Shown in pieces: positions 1 to 8,207 of a stretch of DNA of 33,444 nucleotides. The notes below the pieces were generated by a model. It was not told where the DNA came from and did not search any database. It was given only the letters and a program-made list of their open reading frames with translations. Location: positions 1 through 33,444 of the forward strand of contig VFKA01000019.1 in the NCBI GenBank assembly GCA_009885795.1, written 5' to 3'. Numbering within the stretch: the first letter of the stretch is position 1; the number at the start of each line of letters is the position of its first letter. The stretch comes from Rhodospirillales bacterium (lineage in GTDB: Bacteria > Pseudomonadota > Alphaproteobacteria > Dongiales > Dongiaceae). The translations under genes were made by a program, and so were the position numbers.

Positions 1-2925
1 ACGAAAGAGGACTTCGAAAGGATCGCATCTTGGCTAAGGGGCGAAACAAAGGCTGTCGTCAAACCAGCACCGAGAGACTACCAGATCGAAGCTCTGGAGA
101 AGATTGCCAACACATTTCGGAATGAAAACCGCGCCACTGTCGTCATGGCTTGCGGAACAGGCAAGACCCTTCTGGCGCTCTGGGTCGCTGAACGGCAAGG
201 CGCCAAGACGGTGCTGGTCCTTGTCCCCTCCCTGACGCTGCTTCAGCAGACGCTGGACGAGTGGAGCCGCAACAATTCGTGGGGAACGCGCTTCAGCTAC
301 CTGTGCGTCTGCTCGGATCCCACCGTCTCGCAGATCGACGCCAACGATCCGATCCAACTGAACAGGATGGACATGGAATTCCGCGTCGATACGGATCCTG
401 TCGAAGTTCGCCGTTTTCTCGAAAGACCCACCGACGACATCAAGGTCGTGTTCTCGACTTACCAGTCCTCCGATGTGGTTTCCGAGGGTTGCCGTGGATT
501 GCCGCCCTTCGACGTCGGCATATTCGACGAGGCGCACAAGACCACGGGATCGCAGGGCGGCGTGTTCGCCCACAGCTTGAGGGACGAGAACGTCGCCATT
601 CGCAAGCGGCTGTTCCTGACCGCGACCCCACGGCATTACGACATTCGCCACAGGGATAGGGAAGGCGACTTCAAGATCGTCTCGATGGACGATCCTGCCG
701 TCTATGGCGTTCGCGCCTACACCCTGACCTTCGGCGAAGCCGCCCGACGGGGGATCATCTGCAACTACAAGGTCGTGATCTCGGTGGTCGATGGTCGGGA
801 GATCAACGACTTCGCTCTGAAGCACGGTATCACGCTGGTCGAAGGCGATCTTATTGGCGCGAAATGGGTCGCCAACCAAATCGCCATTGAACGCGCCGTC
901 GAGAAGAGCGGAGCAAGGCGTGCGATCACTTTTCATAGTCGCGTATCGAGTGCCAAAGAGTTTGCTTCCGATAGCTCTCGTGGCATCAGGCAGTTTCTCC
1001 CCGACTTCTCCGTTTTTCATGTCAACGGTTTGCAGAAGAGCGCCGAACGCAAGCAACTCATCCGAGCATTCCGCGAAGCGTCGAAAGCACTTGTCACGAA
1101 TGCCCGCTGTTTGACCGAAGGTATTGATGTTCCCGCGGTCGATATGGTTACTTTTGTTGACCCTCGTCACAGCAAGATCGACATCGCGCAGGCGACGGGT
1201 CGCGCCATGCGGAAGCCGAGAGATTCAGACAAGACGATTGGCTATGTGGTTATTCCGCTTTTCCTTGAGACGAGAACGGGAGAAACGCTCGACGAGGCAC
1301 TTGAGCGATCGGACTTTGCTGAAGTCGCAAACGTCCTGAATGCCATGCAGGAGCAAGACGACGATCTTGCGCAGATCATTCGTGAGCTTCAGGAAGCCAA
1401 GGGGCGAGGAGAGGTATTTGATCCGACAAGACTGGCAGACAAGGTCGAGGTTCTCGGACCGTCGATAGAGCTATCAACTCTCAGGTCAAATATCTTTGCT
1501 GAGATCGTCGATAAGATCGGCGTCAGTTGGAATGAGTGGTATGGAAGATTGAAAGCCTATAAAAATCGCGAGGGGCATTGTCGCATTCCATACAAGTACT
1601 CAAAAAATGGTTATCGTCTCGATCAGTGGGTCTTTCGTCAGCGCAAAGTCAAAGACAAACTCTCGCAAGATCGGCGACGCCGACTGGACGAATTGGGATT
1701 TGTTTGGGATCCGCTTGAACAGCAATGGGAAGAAGGCTTTGCTTCTCTGAAATCCTACAGGGAACGCGAGGGGCATTGTCGTGTCCTGCAAGGATATTCC
1801 GAGAAAGGTTTTCTTCTTGGTAAATGGGTACGTAGGCAACGTGCAAACAAAGACGAACTTTCGGAAGATCGGCGACGTAAATTGGACGAATTGGGATTTG
1901 TTTGGGATGTACCTGAAGAACTATGGGACAAAGGCTTTGCTCGCCTGAAAGCCTACAAGGAGCGTGAGGGGCATTGTCTCGTTCGGAAAGGATATTTGGA
2001 AAGTGGTTATCGTCTTGGTCAATGGGTGAAAAAGCAACGCACAGACAAAAACACACTTTTGGAAGATCAGCGACGCAAACTGGACGAATTGGGATTTGTT
2101 TGGGATCCATTTGAACAGCAATGGGAAGAAGGCTTTGCTTATCTGAAAGCCTACAGGGAGCGTGAGGGGCATTGTCGCGTTCCAGTTAGTTATTCGGAAA
2201 ATGGATTTCGTCTTGGCGCATGGGCGAATAACCAACGCACAATCAAAGACACGCTGTCGCCAGTTCGGCGACGCAAACTGGACGAATTGGGATTTGTATG
2301 GGAGCCATTTGAACAGCAATGGGAAGAAGGCTTTGCTCACCTGAAAGCCTACAGGGAACGTGAAGGGCATTGCCGCGTTCCGCAAAGATATTTGGAAAAT
2401 GGTTATGATCTTGGTCAATGGGCGTCTCACCAACGCAGAAACAAAAACAAGCTCTCAGAAGATCGGCGATATAAACTAAATGAATTGGGATTTGTGTGGG
2501 ATCCGATTCAGCGGCAATGGGAAGAAGGCTTTGCTTTTCTGAAAGCCTACAGGGAGCGTGAGGGGCATTGTCGCGTTCCACATAGTTATTCGGCAAATGG
2601 TTTTCGTCTTGGTCTATGGGTGTCCGTTCGACGCAGAAACAAAAACACACTTTTTGAAGATCAGCGACGCAAACTGGACGAATTGGGATTTGTATGGGAG
2701 CCATTTGAACAGCAATGGGAAGAAGGCTTTGTTTATCTGAAAGCCTACAAGGAGCGTCAGGGGCATTGTCGGGTTCTGAGAGGATACTCGGAAAATGGTT
2801 TTCGTCTTGGCACATGGGTACATACTCAACGCAAAAACAAAGGCAAGCTCTCGAAAGATCGGCGACGCAGACTGGACGAATTGGGATTTGTCTGGAGCCT
2901 GAGAAAATCGGATAAAGCGTCATGA
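1..2925 (+). CDS. DEAD/DEAH-box helicase with seven C-terminal helicase-associated (HA) repeats, 5'-truncated by the window edge
   Basis: The frame is open from base 1 without an upstream stop, so the gene starts outside the window; 974 residues are visible. An RxYQxxAL element near residues 29-34 is followed by a Walker A motif (ACGTGKT, ending about residue 55), motif II IFDEAH (about 174-179), motif III LTATPR (about 206-211) and motif VI QATGRAMR (about 397-404). This is a complete superfamily 2 core, so ATP-driven remodelling of nucleic acid is a safe inference. From residue 510 to the end run seven 66-residue HA repeats, each of the form W-x-x-GF-x-x-LK-x-Y ... GHC-x-V ... LG-x-W ... 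LDELGFVW. Base composition is lower in GC than the housekeeping genes, especially in the repeats, which suggests transfer. The missing N-terminus often carries a nuclease domain in related proteins, but that cannot be seen here. Substrate and partners are unknown. Confidence 0.9.
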   Translation, partial: TKEDFERIASWLRGETKAVVKPAPRDYQIEALEKIANTFRNENRATVVMACGTGKTLLALWVAERQGAKTVLVLVPSLTLLQQTLDEWSRNNSWGTRFSYLCVCSDPTVSQIDANDPIQLNRMDMEFRVDTDPVEVRRFLERPTDDIKVVFSTYQSSDVVSEGCRGLPPFDVGIFDEAHKTTGSQGGVFAHSLRDENVAIRKRLFLTATPRHYDIRHRDREGDFKIVSMDDPAVYGVRAYTLTFGEAARRGIICNYKVVISVVDGREINDFALKHGITLVEGDLIGAKWVANQIAIERAVEKSGARRAITFHSRVSSAKEFASDSSRGIRQFLPDFSVFHVNGLQKSAERKQLIRAFREASKALVTNARCLTEGIDVPAVDMVTFVDPRHSKIDIAQATGRAMRKPRDSDKTIGYVVIPLFLETRTGETLDEALERSDFAEVANVLNAMQEQDDDLAQIIRELQEAKGRGEVFDPTRLADKVEVLGPSIELSTLRSNIFAEIVDKIGVSWNEWYGRLKAYKNREGHCRIPYKYSKNGYRLDQWVFRQRKVKDKLSQDRRRRLDELGFVWDPLEQQWEEGFASLKSYREREGHCRVLQGYSEKGFLLGKWVRRQRANKDELSEDRRRKLDELGFVWDVPEELWDKGFARLKAYKEREGHCLVRKGYLESGYRLGQWVKKQRTDKNTLLEDQRRKLDELGFVWDPFEQQWEEGFAYLKAYREREGHCRVPVSYSENGFRLGAWANNQRTIKDTLSPVRRRKLDELGFVWEPFEQQWEEGFAHLKAYREREGHCRVPQRYLENGYDLGQWASHQRRNKNKLSEDRRYKLNELGFVWDPIQRQWEEGFAFLKAYREREGHCRVPHSYSANGFRLGLWVSVRRRNKNTLFEDQRRKLDELGFVWEPFEQQWEEGFVYLKAYKERQGHCRVLRGYSENGFRLGTWVHTQRKNKGKLSKDRRRRLDELGFVWSLRKSDKAS
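1528..2913 (+). repeat. Seven in-frame tandem repeats of exactly 198 bp encoding HA domains
   Basis: A conserved Trp codon that opens each unit falls at 1528, 1726, 1924, 2122, 2320, 2518 and 2716, so the period is exactly 198 bp (66 codons) with no indels. Parts of the units are almost identical at DNA level, notably the blocks encoding GHCRV and LDELGFVW, while the segments between them vary. HA domains (Pfam PF03457) are predicted nucleic-acid-binding units, so the array probably extends the binding surface of the helicase. Confidence 0.93.
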
Positions 2926-3163
2926 TCGCACTTCAGGACAATGTTGCTATTTTGGCAGCCAGCGGGCTTAAGAAATCTTTTTGGGTAAACGCAGTTTGTA
3001 ATCAATTGAAGGGCGACTGTGTACTTGGCATGATTTTCCCATATTGACGGCGCATGGCTGATGTGCCCGCCACAGTAATTCTTGAGATCGAAGTAACGCC
3101 CACGATGATCGAGGCAAAAGTTTCGGCGTTGCTCGATTAAAGCGAGGAAAACATTCAGTGCAA

Positions 3164-3712
3164 CTAATCCTTCTCCGATTGTTCACGAGATCTTTTCAAC
3201 AATGCGTCGTGCTGAGGTTGTAACTCCCGGCCCAATTGCTTGACCGCCTTCAACAACGGCCCAACAGCGTTTGTATAGGTGCGAAATACGTCTAGGGGGA
3301 TGCTTGCGGCAATGGGGTTGATTCGGGCTTTCATAGACTTCCCGCCTTTCCTATGGGGGTATTTTCCAGTGGTCACTTGCAGTATGGGTTTTCCAGAGCC
3401 TGGATGCTTCACCCAAACACCGTGAGCTATCTTGTCACGGAATTCCTCTAGTTCAGCAGCTTTGGTGGCCATTAGCTTGATATTCAGGGTGGTCTTGAAG
3501 TCGCGTAGCGCCATTAAATCCTCGATCATGGTGAACGAGTCTCGCACACGGGGACTTCTAACAGCAACGCGACCGAGTTTCGGGTTCACGTCTAACAATG
3601 CATAAATGAGCATTCTGAGCGCGGTCTCTAGAACGGCAAACCGTGAGACCATCCGGCCGATGGCACTGTTATACGCTGTAGGTAGCTTGTACCAAACAGG
3701 GTGAATGCCCAT
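3164..3712 (-). CDS. Hypothetical HEPN-like protein (RX4H motif)
   Basis: The product is about 182 residues from the ATG at 3712; an in-frame TTG lies 15 bases further upstream, and neither start has a clear ribosome binding site. The N-terminal third is helical in look, with a pattern of the type fAxLExxLRxxIyaLL. About the middle is the string RDKIAHG, which fits the RX4H signature of HEPN domains, many of which are RNases or toxin parts. The rest is basic and unrecognised. It lies downstream of, and opposite in direction to, the HA-repeat helicase. The 238 bp between the two (2926-3163) hold no convincing gene. The HEPN assignment rests on one short motif plus helical context, so function is unproven. 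Confidence 0.6.
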   Translation of the reverse strand: MGIHPVWYKLPTAYNSAIGRMVSRFAVLETALRMLIYALLDVNPKLGRVAVRSPRVRDSFTMIEDLMALRDFKTTLNIKLMATKAAELEEFRDKIAHGVWVKHPGSGKPILQVTTGKYPHRKGGKSMKARINPIAASIPLDVFRTYTNAVGPLLKAVKQLGRELQPQHDALLKRSREQSEKD

Positions 3713-3887
3713 GGCGCATAAATCCAAAGCGTTAAGGCAAACTCAGACCACGAAAGAAACTCAATTTGCGCCGGATGCTTGGGACCGCTTCCAGCGCGCG
3801 AATCACACGATTGCGAAAGCGCGCCTGAGACATCGAACCCGGCTACTAAGGGCGGACGACGAAGCAAACGTGGCGGCCTTTGCCGAA
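3711..3887 (+). pseudogene. Possible remnant of a short protein with a FAPDAWxRF core
   Basis: A plus-strand frame opens at 3711 and encodes a basic lead, then FAPDAWDRFQRANHTIAKA and RHR. The pattern (T/A)PDAWxRFxxAV ... KxxPxHR occurs in short alphaproteobacterial proteins as far as I recall. After the HR residues the frame loses this character and runs on to 4130 through the zinc-ribbon gene on the other strand. A shift to another frame just after that point would give a basic Lys/Arg/Gly-rich tail. It is therefore either a small gene broken by a frameshift or a coincidence. Its start touches the start of the HEPN-like gene on the other strand. Confidence 0.25.
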
Positions 3888-4118
3888 CTAGTCCAGCCGG
3901 CGAGCCTCTCTGTCAGCAAGCGCGCAATAACGCACAAATTGTTCAATAAAGGCCCTATTGGCGCCCGCCTTGAGGTTGATAGAGACGCCACAATTGCCGC
4001 AGGCAAGACCGTCGTGCGATGCAAGCCAACCGACGGTCTGCTCCGTAGCCTTAAGGCACTTTGGGCAAATGATGGCGAGCTTGACCATATCGTCGATCTT
4101 GGTTGGGTGCTTTGCCAT
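3888..4118 (-). CDS. Small zinc-ribbon hypothetical protein
   Basis: The product has 76 residues. Two CxxC knuckles, CPKC (residues 19-22) and CGNC (residues 40-43), are spaced as in a zinc ribbon, with W30 between them. The ATG has a good ribbon of upstream support: AGGAG five bases before it. No enzyme motif is visible, so a nucleic-acid or protein-binding role is the most that can be inferred. It is on the same strand as the HEPN-like gene, upstream of it by about 175 bp, so the two could be co-transcribed. A longer overlapping frame on the minus strand (3803-4240) shows no family features and was not chosen. Confidence 0.7.
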   Translation of the reverse strand: MAKHPTKIDDMVKLAIICPKCLKATEQTVGWLASHDGLACGNCGVSINLKAGANRAFIEQFVRYCALADREARRLD

Positions 4119-4240
4119 GGTGACTCCTGACTACTTCGGACGTTTGGCCGTCGGCCTCTGAGCTGGTCCCACTCGGTTGGACGGGTTGGCAGCGAAGTTA
4201 GGGTGTATTCCGGTTGCTGTTCACGCCGCCAGAACCTCAT

Positions 4241-4330
4241 TCATGTTGAACGCTTCTTGTTGCCGTTGGCCCTGTGGGGACGTGGGCTACGCGCCCGCCT
4301 TGTCCACCATGTCCACAGACCCCTTGTCCG
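4241..4330 (-). mobile_element. Remnant resembling the 3' tail of an ISNCY-type transposase gene
   Basis: Read on the minus strand, this stretch resembles the 3' end of the transposase gene at 6667-7959. Both contain CTGTGGA, a run near GTGGAC, then CCCAC.TCCCCACAGG, a CCAAC and a CAACAA, in the same order and spacing. In one frame it encodes SPRPHRANGNKK, against SPRPHPHRPNINKS in the intact transposase. No other part of a transposase or terminal repeat is present. The rest of the 298-bp gap (4119-4416) holds nothing I recognise. Confidence 0.4.
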
Positions 4331-4416
4331 AGTAGGTCTCCGCCGGCGGCCTGTCGTCAAGGGCGGTTTGCGGCGGACGAGGCAACCGCCTCCGCCCCCG
4401 CCCAATCGAAAGAGAG

Positions 4417-4746
4417 CTACTCCGCGCCCTCGCCCAAGCGCGTAATCTTCACGTCGCCAGTCGGGAAATGCGCGACAAGCTCAAGCTTGCCGCCCATGGC
4501 TTCGACGGTGTCGCGCAGCGTGCTGACCTTCATGTCGGCGCGCTGCTCCATCTGCGCGACGGCCGCCTGCGACTTGCCGAGCGCGCGTGCCAGTTCTTCC
4601 TGCGAGATGTGCAGGGCCTTGCGAAGATCGGCCAGGGCCGCCTCCTCGATATCGCGCAGAAGCACATCCTTGCGCCGCCCGACGCGCAGGCGCCGCCCGG
4701 CCGGCCAGTCCTTTGTCAACTCCTTGAAGGCACGATGCCCAGTCAT
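4417..4746 (-). CDS. higA: XRE-family antitoxin (HigA-like)
   Basis: The product has 109 residues. A helix-turn-helix of XRE type runs from about residue 40 to 95 (LRKALHISQEELARALGKSQ ... VSTLRDTVEAMGGKLEL), the form typical of HigA-like antitoxins that pair with RelE/Gp49-like toxins. The start ATG overlaps the toxin stop by 4 bp (ATGA), so translation is probably coupled. The toxin-first order is that of higBA modules. The antitoxin is expected to neutralise the toxin by direct binding and to repress the shared promoter at about 5127-5153. The symbol is by family analogy. Confidence 0.85.
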   Translation of the reverse strand: MTGHRAFKELTKDWPAGRRLRVGRRKDVLLRDIEEAALADLRKALHISQEELARALGKSQAAVAQMEQRADMKVSTLRDTVEAMGGKLELVAHFPTGDVKITRLGEGAE

Positions 4747-5105
4747 CCGATCAAGCCCTCCTTTCTAAGCTCATCCAGGTGCGTGTCGTACAGATCGTCG
4801 GCAAGCCGTACATGTTTCTCGTAGAACCGGTCGTCTCCGGTCTTGTCGCCGCCGATCAGCAGAATGGCTTTGCGGCGCGGATCGAAAGCGTAGAATATGC
4901 GCAGCGGCCTGCCGCCGCTCTGCACCCGCAGTTCACGCATGTGGCCGTGCCGCGCACCTTTGATGCCCGAGGAATGGGGGAACGGCAGCCGTGGCCCAAG
5001 GGCCATCAGCAATTCGACGCTTGCCGCCACGTCCTCCTGCTGGCCTTCCGCCAGCCCCCTCCACCACTCCCCGAATTCGTCGGTATACTCGACATCCCAA
5101 CTCAT
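4743..5105 (-). CDS. higB: RelE/HigB-like toxin (Gp49 family)
   Basis: The product has 120 residues from the ATG at 5105; an in-frame TTG at 5120 would add five. Characteristic parts are the N-terminal Y-x-D-E-F-x-x-W-W, [21 protein letters not shown] in the middle and [17 protein letters not shown] towards the end. This is the layout of phage Gp49-like/HigB toxins, which cleave mRNA at the ribosome. Its stop overlaps the antitoxin start. GGA lies about ten bases before the ATG. Substrate and activity are inferred from the family. Confidence 0.87.
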
Positions 5106-5126
5106 GCGTCGCGATTCCAACGGTAA

Positions 5127-5153
5127 TTTATAATGTCAAGATTATATTGTCAA
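5127..5153 (-). promoter_or_regulatory. Candidate promoter and operator of the toxin-antitoxin operon
   Basis: On the minus strand TTGACA (5153-5148) is followed 15 bases later by TATAAA (5132-5127), about 21 bases before the toxin ATG. The same stretch contains two direct copies of TATAWTGTCAA on the plus strand, 5129-5139 and 5143-5153, 14 bp apart. This AT-rich island in GC-rich DNA is a natural site for autoregulation by the XRE antitoxin. The 15-base spacer is short for a sigma-70 promoter. Confidence 0.5.
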
Positions 5154-5344
5154 TAGCGCGGAGATTCGACGAATGTGAGCATTCTCGCAGGGAAAGTGTA
5201 AGTGTTCAGAAAGATATGGTCGCCTACTTATTGGTGATGCCTCCCTCTTGTTGCGCCGCTGCTCCGCCCTTGTGCCGCCAGCGGGCGGCTGGTATAGGCG
5301 CGACGCCTCGCCCGACGCCGCCCCAGAACCCAGGAGCAACCGCT

Positions 5345-6640
5345 ATGCCCCAATTCACGGACTACAAGGTCAAGGACATCGCGCTCGGCGGCTGGGGGCG
5401 GCGCGAGATCGCCATCGCCGAGACCGAGATGCCGGGGCTGATGGCGCTGCGCCGCGATCATGGCGGCAAGCGCCCGCTCAAGGGTGCCCGCATCACCGGC
5501 TGCCTGCACATGACCATCCAGACCGCGGTGCTGATCGAGACGCTGATCGAGCTCGGCGCCGAGGTCAGGTGGAGTTCCTGCAACATCTTCTCGACCCAGG
5601 ACCAGGCCGCGGCGGCGATCGCGGCCGCCGGCATCCCGGTCTTCGCCTGGAAGGGCGAGAGCGAGGAGGAATACTGGTGGTGCGTGGAGCAGACGATCCT
5701 CGGCCCCAACGGCTGGCGGCCGAACCTGTTGCTGGACGATGGCGGCGATCTGACGCTGCTGATGCACGAGACGCACCCGGACCTTCTCGACGGCGTGCGC
5801 GGCGTCAGCGAGGAGACGACGACCGGCGTGCACCGGCTCTACGACATGGAGCGCAAGGGCACGCTGAAGGTGGCGGCGATCAACGTCAATGATTCCGTAA
5901 CGAAGTCCAAGTTCGACAACCTCTACGGCGTGCGCGAGAGCCTGGTCGATGGCATCAAGCGCGCCACCGGCGTCATGCTGGCGGGCAAGGTCGGGGTCGT
6001 CTGCGGCTTCGGCGACGTCGGCAAGGGCAGCGCCGCCTCGCTGCGTAGCCAGGGGGCGCGCGTCATGGTGACGGAGATCGATCCGATCTGCGCGCTCCAG
6101 GCGGCCATGGAGGGCTACCAGGTCACGACCATGGAGGAGGCGGCCGGCCTCGGCGATGTGTTCGTCACCGCCACCGGCAATCTGGACGTCATCACGCTCG
6201 AACACATGCGCCGCATGAAGGACCGCGCCATCGTCTGCAACATCGGCCATTTCGACAGCGAGATTCAGGTGGCGGCCCTGGCGAATTACAAATGGGAAGA
6301 GGTGAAGCCGCAGGTGGACGAGGTCGTCTTCCCCGACGGCAAGCGCTTGATCGTGCTGGCCAAGGGGCGGCTGGTGAATCTCGGCTGCGCCGACGGCCAT
6401 CCGAGCTTCGTCATGAGCGCCTCCTTCACCAACCAGGTGCTGGCGCAGATCGAGCTTTGGACCAATCACAAGACCTACGGGCGCAAGGTCCATGTGCTGC
6501 CGAAGCACCTCGACGAGAAGGTGGCGGCGCTGCATCTGGACAAGGTCGGCGCCAAGCTGACCAAGCTGACCGAGAAGCAGGCCGCCTATATCGGCGTGGC
6601 CGAGGGCGGCCCCTTCAAACCGGAACGCTACCGCTACTGA
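5345..6640 (+). CDS. ahcY: Adenosylhomocysteinase
   Basis: The product has 431 residues. It splits S-adenosylhomocysteine into adenosine and homocysteine in the cytoplasm, clearing the by-product of methylation. The N-terminal [17 protein letters not shown], the [15 protein letters not shown] block, the NAD-binding GFGDVGKG (about residues 221-228) and the C-terminal PFKPERYRY are all diagnostic. The start at 5345 has AGGAG eight bases upstream; the frame is open further upstream, but the added residues are low-complexity and not conserved. The stop codon lies within the 19-bp target duplication of the IS that follows, and the insertion left the gene intact. No SAM or SAH riboswitch was recognised in the roughly 190 bp upstream. 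Confidence 0.97.
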
Positions 6641-6654
6641 CCGCCGCTGGAGCT
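6636..6654 (+). repeat. Left copy of a 19-bp target-site duplication
   Basis: ACTGACCGCCGCTGGAGCT is repeated exactly at 8040-8058, directly flanking the IS. The bases just outside the match differ (T/C on the left side, G/T on the right side). The left copy includes the end of the last codon and the TGA of ahcY. Confidence 0.9.
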
Positions 6655-6691
6655 GTCGATAGCTAATTAACTTGTCCGGTTTTCGTAGCAC
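6655..6691 (+). repeat. Left terminal inverted repeat of the IS
   Basis: The repeat is 37 bases long: GTCGATAGC, a variable AT-rich block, TGTCCGGT, then CGTAGCAC. It matches the reverse complement of 8004-8039 with identical outer and inner blocks, a one-base gap and mismatches in the middle. Confidence 0.88.
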
Positions 6692-7959
6692 ATCAATTGA
6701 CCGCTTTTGTTGATGTTGGGCCTGTGGGGATGTGGGCGGGGCGAAGCGCCGTCCACATATCCACAGGCCTCGCGCGGCGAGCGGCTGGCGTCGCGCGGAT
6801 TGGGCTCGTCGAGCAGGCTGGCGTCGGCTCGATAGCGGGCGATGCAGCGGGGTCCGTGGAAGACGGCGAGCGTGCCGTCCGGATATTCGTGGACACGGAC
6901 CTTGACCTTGACGAAGTGCGGGCGAAGCGGGCTCTTCGGCAGCTGCAAGCTGAGCCGGCGATAGAGCACCGTGTTGTCGTTGCCCACGACCCGATCCTCG
7001 TGGACGCACAGGATGTCGGCGCAGTCCGCGTCGCGATCGCGCACGAAGGCCGAGCCGGGCTCCGGCGCCGGCCTGGCGAAGCGGGCGTTATGGGTCGGCA
7101 GGTAGACCTCGGCGATGAACCGGTTGGCGGCCTCGATGTCGGCGATGCCGGCGAGCCGCAGCTCTTGCGGCAGGCGCCCCTGCAGGGTGCCGAACATACG
7201 CTCCGAGCGACCGCGCGCCTCGGGCGAATAGGCCGGGATGTGCTCGATGCCGAGCTGCGCGAGCGCCCGGCCGACCTGGGTCGGGTTGTCCTTGTCGACC
7301 TTGCCGCCGGCCGTGGGCGTGTGGAAGTAATGCCCGCCCCGGTCGGTGTAGAAAGAACAGAACAGGCCGTGCTTGGCGATGACCTCGCGCAAAGCCCGGA
7401 AGCTGCTCATCGTGCCCTCCTCCTCGACCAGGAAGGCGGAGTAGATCTCGTTCGTCGCGTCATCCAGGGTGACGATCAGATCGAAGCCGCGATCGAGCGC
7501 CGGAATCCAGCGATGCGGTGAGCCATCCTGGTGCAACATCATGCCCGCGAGCGCCCGCTTCTTGCGGTGCGCGCCGCGCCGCGGCGCCGGCTCGATCAGT
7601 TCCTTGGCGTGCAAGAACGTCTTGGTCCAGGTGTAGCCCCAGCGAAAGCCGTGGTCCTTGGCCAGATGCTCGTGAAAGTGCTTGGCCGTGAAGTCGAAGT
7701 AGCGCTCCCGGTAGAGCTGCTCCACCCGCATCGCCCACTCCTCCGGCACTCGCTTGGCCGAGGCACGGCCCAACCGCCGATCCAACAGGCCCGTGGGCCC
7801 CTCGTCGTCGAAGCGCTCGGTCCAGCGCCGAAATGTCCGCTCGCTCATACCCAAAATCTCCGCTGCCTCGGCCTGGCTCAACTCCCGCCGGCGCGAGCGC
7901 TCCAAAACGCTCTCGAACCTCATCCTGCGTACCCCTTGCAGCACCTCCGTCCGTCGCAT
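6667..7959 (-). CDS. ISNCY-type DDE transposase with integrase core
   Basis: The product has 430 residues. The ATG at 7959 has AAGGAGG five bases upstream, which decides the start against a TTG further out. An N-terminal helix-turn-helix (LSQAEAAEILGMSERTFRRW) is followed by a second HTH-like region and a retroviral-integrase fold. The likely catalytic triad is the Asp in LHQDGSPH, the Asp in YTDRGGHY and the Glu in RGRSERMFG. The C-terminal part, with KVRVHEYPDGTLAVFHGPR, is typical of these transposases. The last residues are encoded by the left inverted repeat. Length and motifs look complete, so the enzyme may be active. Confidence 0.92.
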   Translation of the reverse strand: MRRTEVLQGVRRMRFESVLERSRRRELSQAEAAEILGMSERTFRRWTERFDDEGPTGLLDRRLGRASAKRVPEEWAMRVEQLYRERYFDFTAKHFHEHLAKDHGFRWGYTWTKTFLHAKELIEPAPRRGAHRKKRALAGMMLHQDGSPHRWIPALDRGFDLIVTLDDATNEIYSAFLVEEEGTMSSFRALREVIAKHGLFCSFYTDRGGHYFHTPTAGGKVDKDNPTQVGRALAQLGIEHIPAYSPEARGRSERMFGTLQGRLPQELRLAGIADIEAANRFIAEVYLPTHNARFARPAPEPGSAFVRDRDADCADILCVHEDRVVGNDNTVLYRRLSLQLPKSPLRPHFVKVKVRVHEYPDGTLAVFHGPRCIARYRADASLLDEPNPRDASRSPREACGYVDGASPRPHPHRPNINKSGQLMCYENRTS

Positions 7960-8003
7960 CCTCGCCTCCTTGCCAGAGGCCGGGATCAAACCGGACAGAT
8001 CGT

Positions 8004-8039
8004 GTGCTACAAAGACCGGACATATCGTGTGCTATCGAC
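8004..8039 (-). repeat. Right terminal inverted repeat of the IS
   Basis: The reverse complement reads GTCGATAGC, a variable block, TGTCCGGT and then TTTGTAGCAC. It pairs with 6655-6691. Part of it also belongs to the 25-bp-spaced direct repeat at 7991-8036. Confidence 0.88.
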
Positions 8040-8058
8040 ACTGACCGCCGCTGGAGCT
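8040..8058 (+). repeat. Right copy of the 19-bp target-site duplication
   Basis: This is identical over 19 bp to 6636-6654. Joining the two copies restores an uninterrupted ahcY stop codon and downstream leader, which is the expected empty site. Confidence 0.9.
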
Positions 8059-8130
8059 TGAACGAACGCGGGATCGCTACTATCGTATCGATCTTGTGAA
8101 CCGATTCCGGCATATGCTTCCGTCCTTCTT

Positions 8131-8207
8131 GTCATGCCCGGCCCCCGAGCCGGGCATCCATCCCGCCGCCGCGCCGTGGATTGCCGGGTCAAGCTCGGCA
8201 ATGACAG
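8131..8207 (+). repeat. REP-like double-palindromic element, copy A
   Basis: The element starts GTCATGCCCGGC, has a first hairpin with GAGCCGGGCAT, a spacer with GGAT, and a second hairpin TTGCCGGGTCAAGCTCGGCAA, ending TGACA. The reverse complement of 21744-21818 matches it along its whole length. Such elements are common intergenic repeats in alphaproteobacteria. Its last seven bases overlap the proposed start of the kinase gene. Confidence 0.8.

Follow-up and report, generated by a model that had tools for sequence, protein, structure and literature searches.

A nuclease-helicase gene that ends in seven HA units

Contig VFKA01000019.1 of assembly GCA_009885795.1, a stretch of 33,444 nucleotides from a Rhodospirillales bacterium (family Dongiaceae) that we refer to as the window, begins inside a gene that carries a tandem array of HA domains (PF03457) at its 3' end. 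Positions 1 to 2925 hold the 3' part of this gene. The opening 160 codons are found on contig C8 of the same genome, which overlaps the first 109 bases of the window without a difference (contigs C8 and C93 overlap by 109 bp). The join is supported by synteny: in all six order relatives examined, ptsP and ahcY lie in the same orientation, 0.26 to 3.7 kb apart, and in this genome the two genes flank the join, ptsP towards C8 and ahcY towards the window. Once both contigs are joined, the HA gene sits between ptsP and ahcY and encodes a protein of 1134 amino acids (aa) consisting of an Mrr-like nuclease, a superfamily 2 (SF2) helicase and the HA array (Table 1).

TABLE 1 Features of the HA gene and of the adjoining stretch of lower G+C content (GC) in the window
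Feature	Position	Strand	Evidence or remark
SF2 helicase/translocase part	1..1527	+	Pfam ResIII, Helicase_C and DEAD; residues 161-669 of the joined 1134-aa protein
Walker A, CGTGKT	151..168	+	Translation; intact in the window gene and 11 relatives
Walker B, DEAH	526..537	+	Translation; intact in the window gene and 11 relatives
Helicase motif VI, QATGRAMR	1189..1212	+	Translation
HA unit 1	1528..1725	+	Most divergent unit; WxxW/RYG-type start, seen again in the first units of relatives
HA unit 2	1726..1923	+	Pfam HA and repeat register
HA unit 3	1924..2121	+	Pfam HA and repeat register
HA unit 4	2122..2319	+	Pfam HA and repeat register
HA unit 5	2320..2517	+	Pfam HA and repeat register
HA unit 6	2518..2715	+	Pfam HA and repeat register
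HA unit 7	2716..2913	+	Followed by a short tail and the stop codon at 2923-2925
Rest of lower-GC stretch, from the gene to ahcY	2923..5344		GC 54.1% at 2923-4400 and 61.5% at 4400-5200

The initial annotation, made from the letters of the window alone, had described seven HA domains in a 198-bp register, and three lines of evidence bear this out. The Pfam HA profile scores 423 bits on the window protein (P0001) in seven stretches (cut-off, 28.4), and all seven units exceed the curated cut-off and lie C-terminal to the SF2 helicase. Tandem Repeats Finder reports a period of 198 with 6.3 copies, 0% indels and a score of 1459 at 1650-2895. The seven units together span 1528-2913, each being exactly 198 bp long, and all six steps between unit starts measure 66 codons. 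At 68 bp, the longest exact repeat within the array falls short of the 109-bp overlap of C8 and C93, so a collapsed unit count is unlikely.

Between units, identity is 58 to 77% at the amino acid level and 68 to 86% at the nucleotide level, with 23 of 66 columns invariant. The strong DNA identity of some blocks, from which the initial annotation had read recent unit duplication or gene conversion, holds for units 3, 4 and 6, which differ by only 0.11 to 0.22 synonymous substitutions per synonymous site (dS). It does not hold for the other pairs, which are old (dS up to 1.39), and the array is therefore only partly recent.

The body is related to type ISP restriction enzymes

An N-terminal nuclease domain, which the initial annotation had proposed to look for upstream, is present in the part of the protein encoded on C8. 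The N-terminus has the order GDAFE - GIDG - YQVK, as in PD-(D/E)XK nucleases, and we take these to be the motifs of that fold. Pfam Mrr_cat_2 scores 20.8 bits in the window protein, just below its cut-off of 22, and is above cut-off in homologues such as L077 and L086. When the first 685 residues were compared with solved structures by phmmer, the nuclease-helicase half was closest to the type ISP restriction enzymes LlaBIII (4xqk; E value, 4e-55; chain residues 15 to 661) and LlaGI (E value, 1.4e-50), and the best PADLOC model for the window protein is a restriction-methylase.

LlaBIII and LlaGI are described as type ISP enzymes made up of a nuclease, an SF2 ATPase, a coupler, a methylase and a recognition domain (PMC4872093). 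In the window protein, only 40 residues separate the end of the LlaBIII match from the first HA unit, and a Pfam scan of P0001 found no ISP_coupler, methylase or Type_ISP_C. The same library found all three in L086, which is built on the same nuclease-helicase chassis. The HA array occupies the place of the coupler, methylase and recognition domain.

Unit number and array divergence among relatives

Eleven relatives were read alongside the window gene, namely, L028 to L030 (by name Opitutae, Verrucomicrobiota) and L068 to L075, from the class of the L030 genome. Three further loci were left out: L031, in which the gene reaches the contig end; L032, in which the open reading frame (ORF) enters nonmatching sequence; and L076, a 648-aa ORF at a contig end. 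No HA was found in the genomes of L031 and L032. Walker A, DEAH, motif VI and the nuclease residues (E, the D of GxDG, and QxK) are intact in the window gene and in all 11 relatives, 12 of 12. The arrays have 5, 6 and 5 units in L028 to L030 and 7, 7, 9, 11, 6, 5, 6 and 13 units in L068 to L075 (unit 7 of L068 scores only 20 bits and is counted among its seven; units below 35 bits were dropped from the unit comparison).

Variable copy number, another expectation of the initial annotation, thus holds at 5 to 13 units for relatives with intact catalytic motifs but not for a plasmid-borne form in Pseudomonas, which has six units and begins at the helicase. It matched 103 records, of which 60 were listed, and its length is the same in 59 of these. 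A Hydrogenophaga plasmid homologue, with five units, also begins at the helicase. The exact 66-codon periodicity of the window is confined to a small clade, since 66-aa steps throughout are seen only in four arrays (the window, L028, L029 and L030) and in a fragment on contig C97 of the window genome; the steps in other relatives range from 66 to 89 aa.

Bodies and arrays were compared in pairs with a body identity of at least 60% in a high-scoring segment pair longer than 250 aa, a filter that leaves out the window gene (loci L135, L137 and L148 were also dropped); units were paired collinearly, and only unit pairs above 40% identity were kept, which favors the array. Even so, all 17 active pairs with a value showed lower identity in the array than in the body, although the pairs share members and are not independent. 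For example, L029 and L030 are 92.7% identical over the body and 51.6% over the units (6 versus 5 units), and L069 and L070 are 89.6% and 62.8% identical, respectively (7 versus 9 units). The narrowest gap was that of L071 and L075 (61.2% versus 60.3%), and in an 18th active pair, L073 and L074, no collinear pair of units exceeded 40%, which left it without a value. In a poorly supported tree of 31 units drawn from six arrays, units cluster by array overall (10 changes against a shuffled mean of 20.0; 0 of 200 shuffles as low).

Other C-terminal modules on the same chassis

Among 23 homologues of the core, nine carry HA arrays, eight carry another repeat, five are of type ISP length (L085 to L089, with L086 scanned by Pfam) and one is cut (L076). 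The eight, which are 31.8 to 44.5% identical over the core, have in the same position another tandem array, built of units of 71 or 66 aa. INT_rpt (PF14882) exceeded the Pfam cut-off only in L079 and L080 among the proteins scanned, a set without L078, and the period is weak in L083 and L084. We observed this INT_rpt-like array on the Mrr-helicase chassis in the C-terminal parts of L077 to L084 and L091.

The whole genes of L077 and L079 match by blastn at 91.7% over 3495 bp, and their seven units are 95.8, 95.3, 65.7, 70.9, 95.3, 95.3 and 99.0% identical in nucleotide sequence. By this comparison, two adjacent units are swapped in register between the two genes.

Hypervariable positions in or just after the predicted helix 2

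To describe positions within the unit, the first W was set as column 0, and the 14 most diverse within-array columns of columns 0 to 59 were defined from L028 to L030 only. At these external columns, window units 2 to 7 have a ratio of nonsynonymous to synonymous differences per site (pN/pS) of 1.36, against 0.37 at the remaining columns, and 57 of 10,000 random column sets scored as high. Five columns within the stretch 31 to 43 (32, 35, 36, 39 and 43) give a ratio of pN to array-wide pS of 2.07 for units 2 to 7 (bootstrap, 1.44 to 3.08) and 1.61 for units 1 to 7 (1.15 to 2.19), values to be read with the post hoc choice of this subset and the nonindependence of pairwise counts in mind. Between window units, the five columns are 13% identical, compared to 72% at the other 55, with the lower value at the five in each of the 21 unit pairs. 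How much a column varies in the window correlates with its variability in the three other 66-aa arrays (r = 0.66). Overall, hypervariable residues share columns across independent arrays, unit length is fixed and the scaffold is conserved: W33, Q37 and R38 occur in 93, 85 and 96 of 101 units, respectively, with K in 4 and Q in 1 of the remainder at position 38.

A predicted model of three units (predicted local distance difference test [pLDDT], 88.1; predicted template modeling score, 0.54) places helix 2 at residues 31 to 40 of the first unit, or columns 30 to 39. Helical geometry would put columns 32, 35, 36 and 39 on one face of helix 2, with column 43 just after it. The model matches 2KTA, the PF03457 example, with a Z score of 6.9 (3.5 Å over 68 residues); 2KTA also ranks first in a Foldseek search with the HA model, although that search returned no match at an E value of ≤0.001. 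In a full-length prediction for P0001 with three relatives, pLDDT is below 50 at 466 of 974 residues. Almost all of these belong to the helicase, so that only the array part is usable.

These patterns bear on whether the array might simply be a nonspecific grip on nucleic acid, acting as a processivity or loading clamp, with the variability of helix 2 reflecting relaxed constraint on exposed residues. The window array is basic (isoelectric point, 9.7), R38 is nearly invariant, and HA units also sit on the nuclease-less plasmid helicases with their constant length in Pseudomonas, all of which would suit a grip. However, relaxation would not yield a pN of about twice pS alongside conserved columns elsewhere, and a grip predicts neither arrays that diverge far faster than the catalytic body nor another repeat array or a recognition domain in the same place. 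We consider this explanation unlikely.

A lineage that keeps the array without the catalytic motifs

In a sample of the phylum, HA was found in 45 of 398 genomes (window genome included), and 40 genomes with HA belong to a single class, that of genome G789, which is presumably Magnetococcia. HA is present in 40 of the 48 genomes of this class and in 25 of its 27 good-quality genomes. Twenty loci were read (L129 to L148, with L135 cut at a contig edge). Their arrays have 5 to 13 units, at least 9 in 19 of 20 loci, mostly in 67-aa steps that become irregular in L137 and L147. The motifs GxGK[ST], DExH and the nuclease motif GxDG...QxK were found in none of the 20 bodies.

In this catalytically dead group, units correspond one to one as orthologues, and none of the six pairs compared shows more than a single gain or loss. 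Constant copy number and orthologous unit-by-unit descent, which the initial annotation had named as speaking against a variable recognition array, are thus the pattern of the dead group and are not seen in the active clade. Under the filter described above, the array was more alike than the body in four of four pairs (96.4 versus 89.1%, 87.9 versus 82.0%, 78.7 versus 76.7% and 82.0 versus 65.0%). Because the array has been kept after the loss of the catalytic motifs and is more alike than the body, it would appear to have a function of its own in this lineage. Nine variable columns of the window, selected from a longer list (6, 21, 22, 32, 35, 36, 39, 40 and 43), all rank in the top 12 of 60 columns by within-array minus between-orthologue difference, where the 12th rank is tied.

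Proposed function of the array

Our best reading, in agreement with the initial annotation's suggestion of a recognition array in a defense or mobile-DNA helicase, is that the gene product is an ATP-driven enzyme of the restriction type. It would consist of a single chain derived from the nuclease and translocase half of a type ISP enzyme, with the HA array as its target-recognizing part; we would assign this a probability of roughly 0.6. A restriction-type enzyme is suggested by the type ISP alignment, the intact catalytic motifs, and the lack of a methylase or recognition domain. Target recognition by the array is suggested by an array less alike than the body, the variable unit number, the column-specific diversification and the different C-terminal modules on one chassis.

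The array would bind a target, probably a DNA sequence or structure, mainly through the hypervariable residues on helix 2 and in nearby loops. By analogy to type ISP enzymes, binding would allow translocation by the SF2 motor and cleavage by the Mrr-type nuclease, perhaps upon an encounter of two motors. Gain, loss and diversification of units would alter the target and leave the enzyme untouched. The host would presumably be spared by lacking or hiding the target, and self-protection would cease to be a problem if the target were long and did not occur in the host.

It is also conceivable that what the array recognizes is not a DNA sequence but a protein, or else nucleic acid of invaders that is modified or structured, so that the enzyme would be type IV-like or a sensor. 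The gene has no methylase, and none of the listed ORFs in the loci of the 11 relatives contains [DNS]PP[YFW], a motif test that does not extend to cytosine methylases. SauUSI is directed by methylation. It is an ATP-dependent endonuclease of related logic (PMC7913695). Diversifying selection would also suit a protein interface between host and parasite. However, a reader of modifications would be expected to conserve its pocket, and the variable face differs in every window unit. We regard this explanation as somewhat less likely than a nonspecific grip.

Several observations weigh against a target-recognizing restriction enzyme. Measured against array-wide pS, the 14 external columns are not clearly above 1 (1.21 [0.73 to 1.95] for units 2 to 7; 1.03 [0.65 to 1.51] for units 1 to 7), and the stronger signal comes from the five columns chosen after the fact. 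Variation in five INT_rpt-like arrays is concentrated, yet there is no excess over pS: their most variable columns, defined from other arrays, have a pN of 0.64 to 0.85 of array-wide pS, and the rest have 0.31 to 0.38. No simple base code emerged: no residue classes stand out among 86 HA units, and column coupling is weak. The units of L028 and L029 alone are not clustered in the unit tree (96 and 142 of 500 shuffles as low), and conservation of the variable face between dead-group orthologues is mixed (875, 4299, 363, 58, 1541 and 1524 of 5000). The six neighbor genes of relatives that were scanned with PADLOC count on both sides: strong matches to Hhe/PDC-S37 (next to L028) and SoFic (next to L029) favor a defense role, and the other four genes match weakly or not at all. 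Nuclease-less HA helicases on plasmids need another role. To our knowledge, there is no mechanism of host protection. Finally, it is from sequence that we infer nucleic acid binding and cleavage by HA arrays, as well as DNA as the ligand, unit-by-unit reading and defense against incoming DNA.

A bolder version of target recognition is tentative, and we hold it at about one chance in three. HA units might be a natural modular DNA-reading system, with every unit covering a short piece of sequence by means of helix 2 and the loops, so that 5 to 13 units could specify long targets. One chassis would then accept two unrelated repeat systems or a methylase-recognition half, the HA enzymes would form a methylase-free class of restriction without self-modification, and the dead lineage would use the same head as a sequence-specific chromosomal DNA-binding protein. 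If so, self-modification would not be needed, as the target would be too long to occur in the host by chance.

Genomic setting and signs of mobility

The HA gene looks foreign to its genome. The nuclease part has a GC of 54.5%, the helicase one of 56.4% and the array one of 47.3%, compared to 67 to 69% beyond ptsP and ahcY. The core was found at an E value of 1e-40 in none of 16 other genomes of the order and, in a sample of the class, in 12 of 385 genomes with the window genome included. The closest homologues found are at most 56% identical over the helicase, and no close allele of the window gene was found in the order and class samples.

A second HA array of three units lies at the end of contig C97 of the same genome (L173:14313-16983), where the contig breaks inside the array. 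This stretch has a GC of 52 to 54%, and next to it lie a gene for a resolvase and one that resembles phage integrase genes (26.0 bits; cut-off, 27.1). Counting from the stop codon, its first 46 bases differ from the window gene at a single position, and the two full units compared are only 68 to 84% identical in nucleotide sequence to window units. Foreign GC and a second array beside recombinase genes fit the description of the gene as mobile-looking in the initial annotation.

Mobility raises the question of whether such genes serve the transfer of plasmids or other elements rather than defense, as the Streptomyces helicase TtrA does. Several Streptomyces plasmid matches (H80, H88, H95, H96, H98 and H99) lie within about 2 kb of the record end. 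One Streptomyces linear plasmid protein, L172, has four HA matches (one weak), an intact Walker A and no Mrr nuclease, and its position suggests that it is a TtrA. The ttrA gene is described as located near a plasmid end and TtrA as required for SLP2 conjugation (PMC8743542). The recombinase genes beside the C97 array and a phage integrase gene directly upstream of L074 also point to element transfer. Against this, the three plasmid forms read (L033, L034 and L172) have no nuclease, and the divergence between body and array resembles that of restriction specificity. For the window gene, a role in transfer appears very unlikely, and we retain the restriction-type enzyme as the preferred reading.

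Between the HA gene and ahcY, the minus strand holds a helix-turn-helix and Gp49-like pair at 4417-5120 (Pfam HTH_3 and Gp49), probably a toxin-antitoxin module. A 187-aa ORF without a Pfam match lies on the same strand in the low-GC stretch (3164-3727). The three longer ptsP-ahcY gaps among order relatives (L166, L167 and L170) have one similar ORF in common and otherwise different ORFs, and the gap may be a place of repeated insertion. At several other relative loci the neighbors look housekeeping-like by eye, such as the chaperone genes near L073. Two other origins were considered and rejected. For an insertion flanked by tRNA genes, no tRNA was found in C8 1-6000 or window 2800-8200. For a phage-borne origin, 22 viral-contig stretches matched a pattern, none proved to be a relative by tblastn, and three phage records match partially.

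Comparison with known systems

HA domains are an old Pfam family. Among the matches listed, no open-licence paper was about 2KTA by its title, and none treated bacterial HA arrays or HA function by its title or the start of its abstract. Should the array indeed be what recognizes the target in a restriction motor, standard binding and restriction assays could test its function directly, and regular repeats exchanged between relatives would provide DNA motors with a natural reading head that is able to evolve. An independent test is available in the dead lineage, which retains the array after the loss of the nuclease and ATPase motifs.

The structural counterpart 2KTA matches the predicted three-unit model and differs in being a single domain of a Bacteroides protein. 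Arrays of the transcription activator-like (TAL) effector, pentatricopeptide repeat (PPR) and PUF types share with HA arrays their fixed-length units, conserved scaffold, hypervariable fixed positions and variable unit number. However, their repeats are unrelated to HA and measure about 35 aa rather than 66, and the HA array shows no visible base code and is fused to a restriction-type motor. The INT_rpt-like arrays of 66 or 71 aa share the nuclease-helicase body, the position, the regular register and the swapping of units between relatives, although the repeat sequence is unrelated to HA.

The TtrA-type terminal helicases of Streptomyces share the helicase family and the HA units. They differ in lacking the Mrr nuclease, in lying near the ends of linear plasmids, unlike the window gene between ptsP and ahcY, and in being tied to conjugation (PMC8743542). 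With the type ISP enzymes LlaBIII and LlaGI, the window protein shares a single chain in which an Mrr-type nuclease is followed by an SF2 translocase with intact motifs. In place of their alpha-helical coupler, gamma-class N6-adenine methyltransferase and Type_ISP_C domain, the window protein carries its HA array after the helicase.

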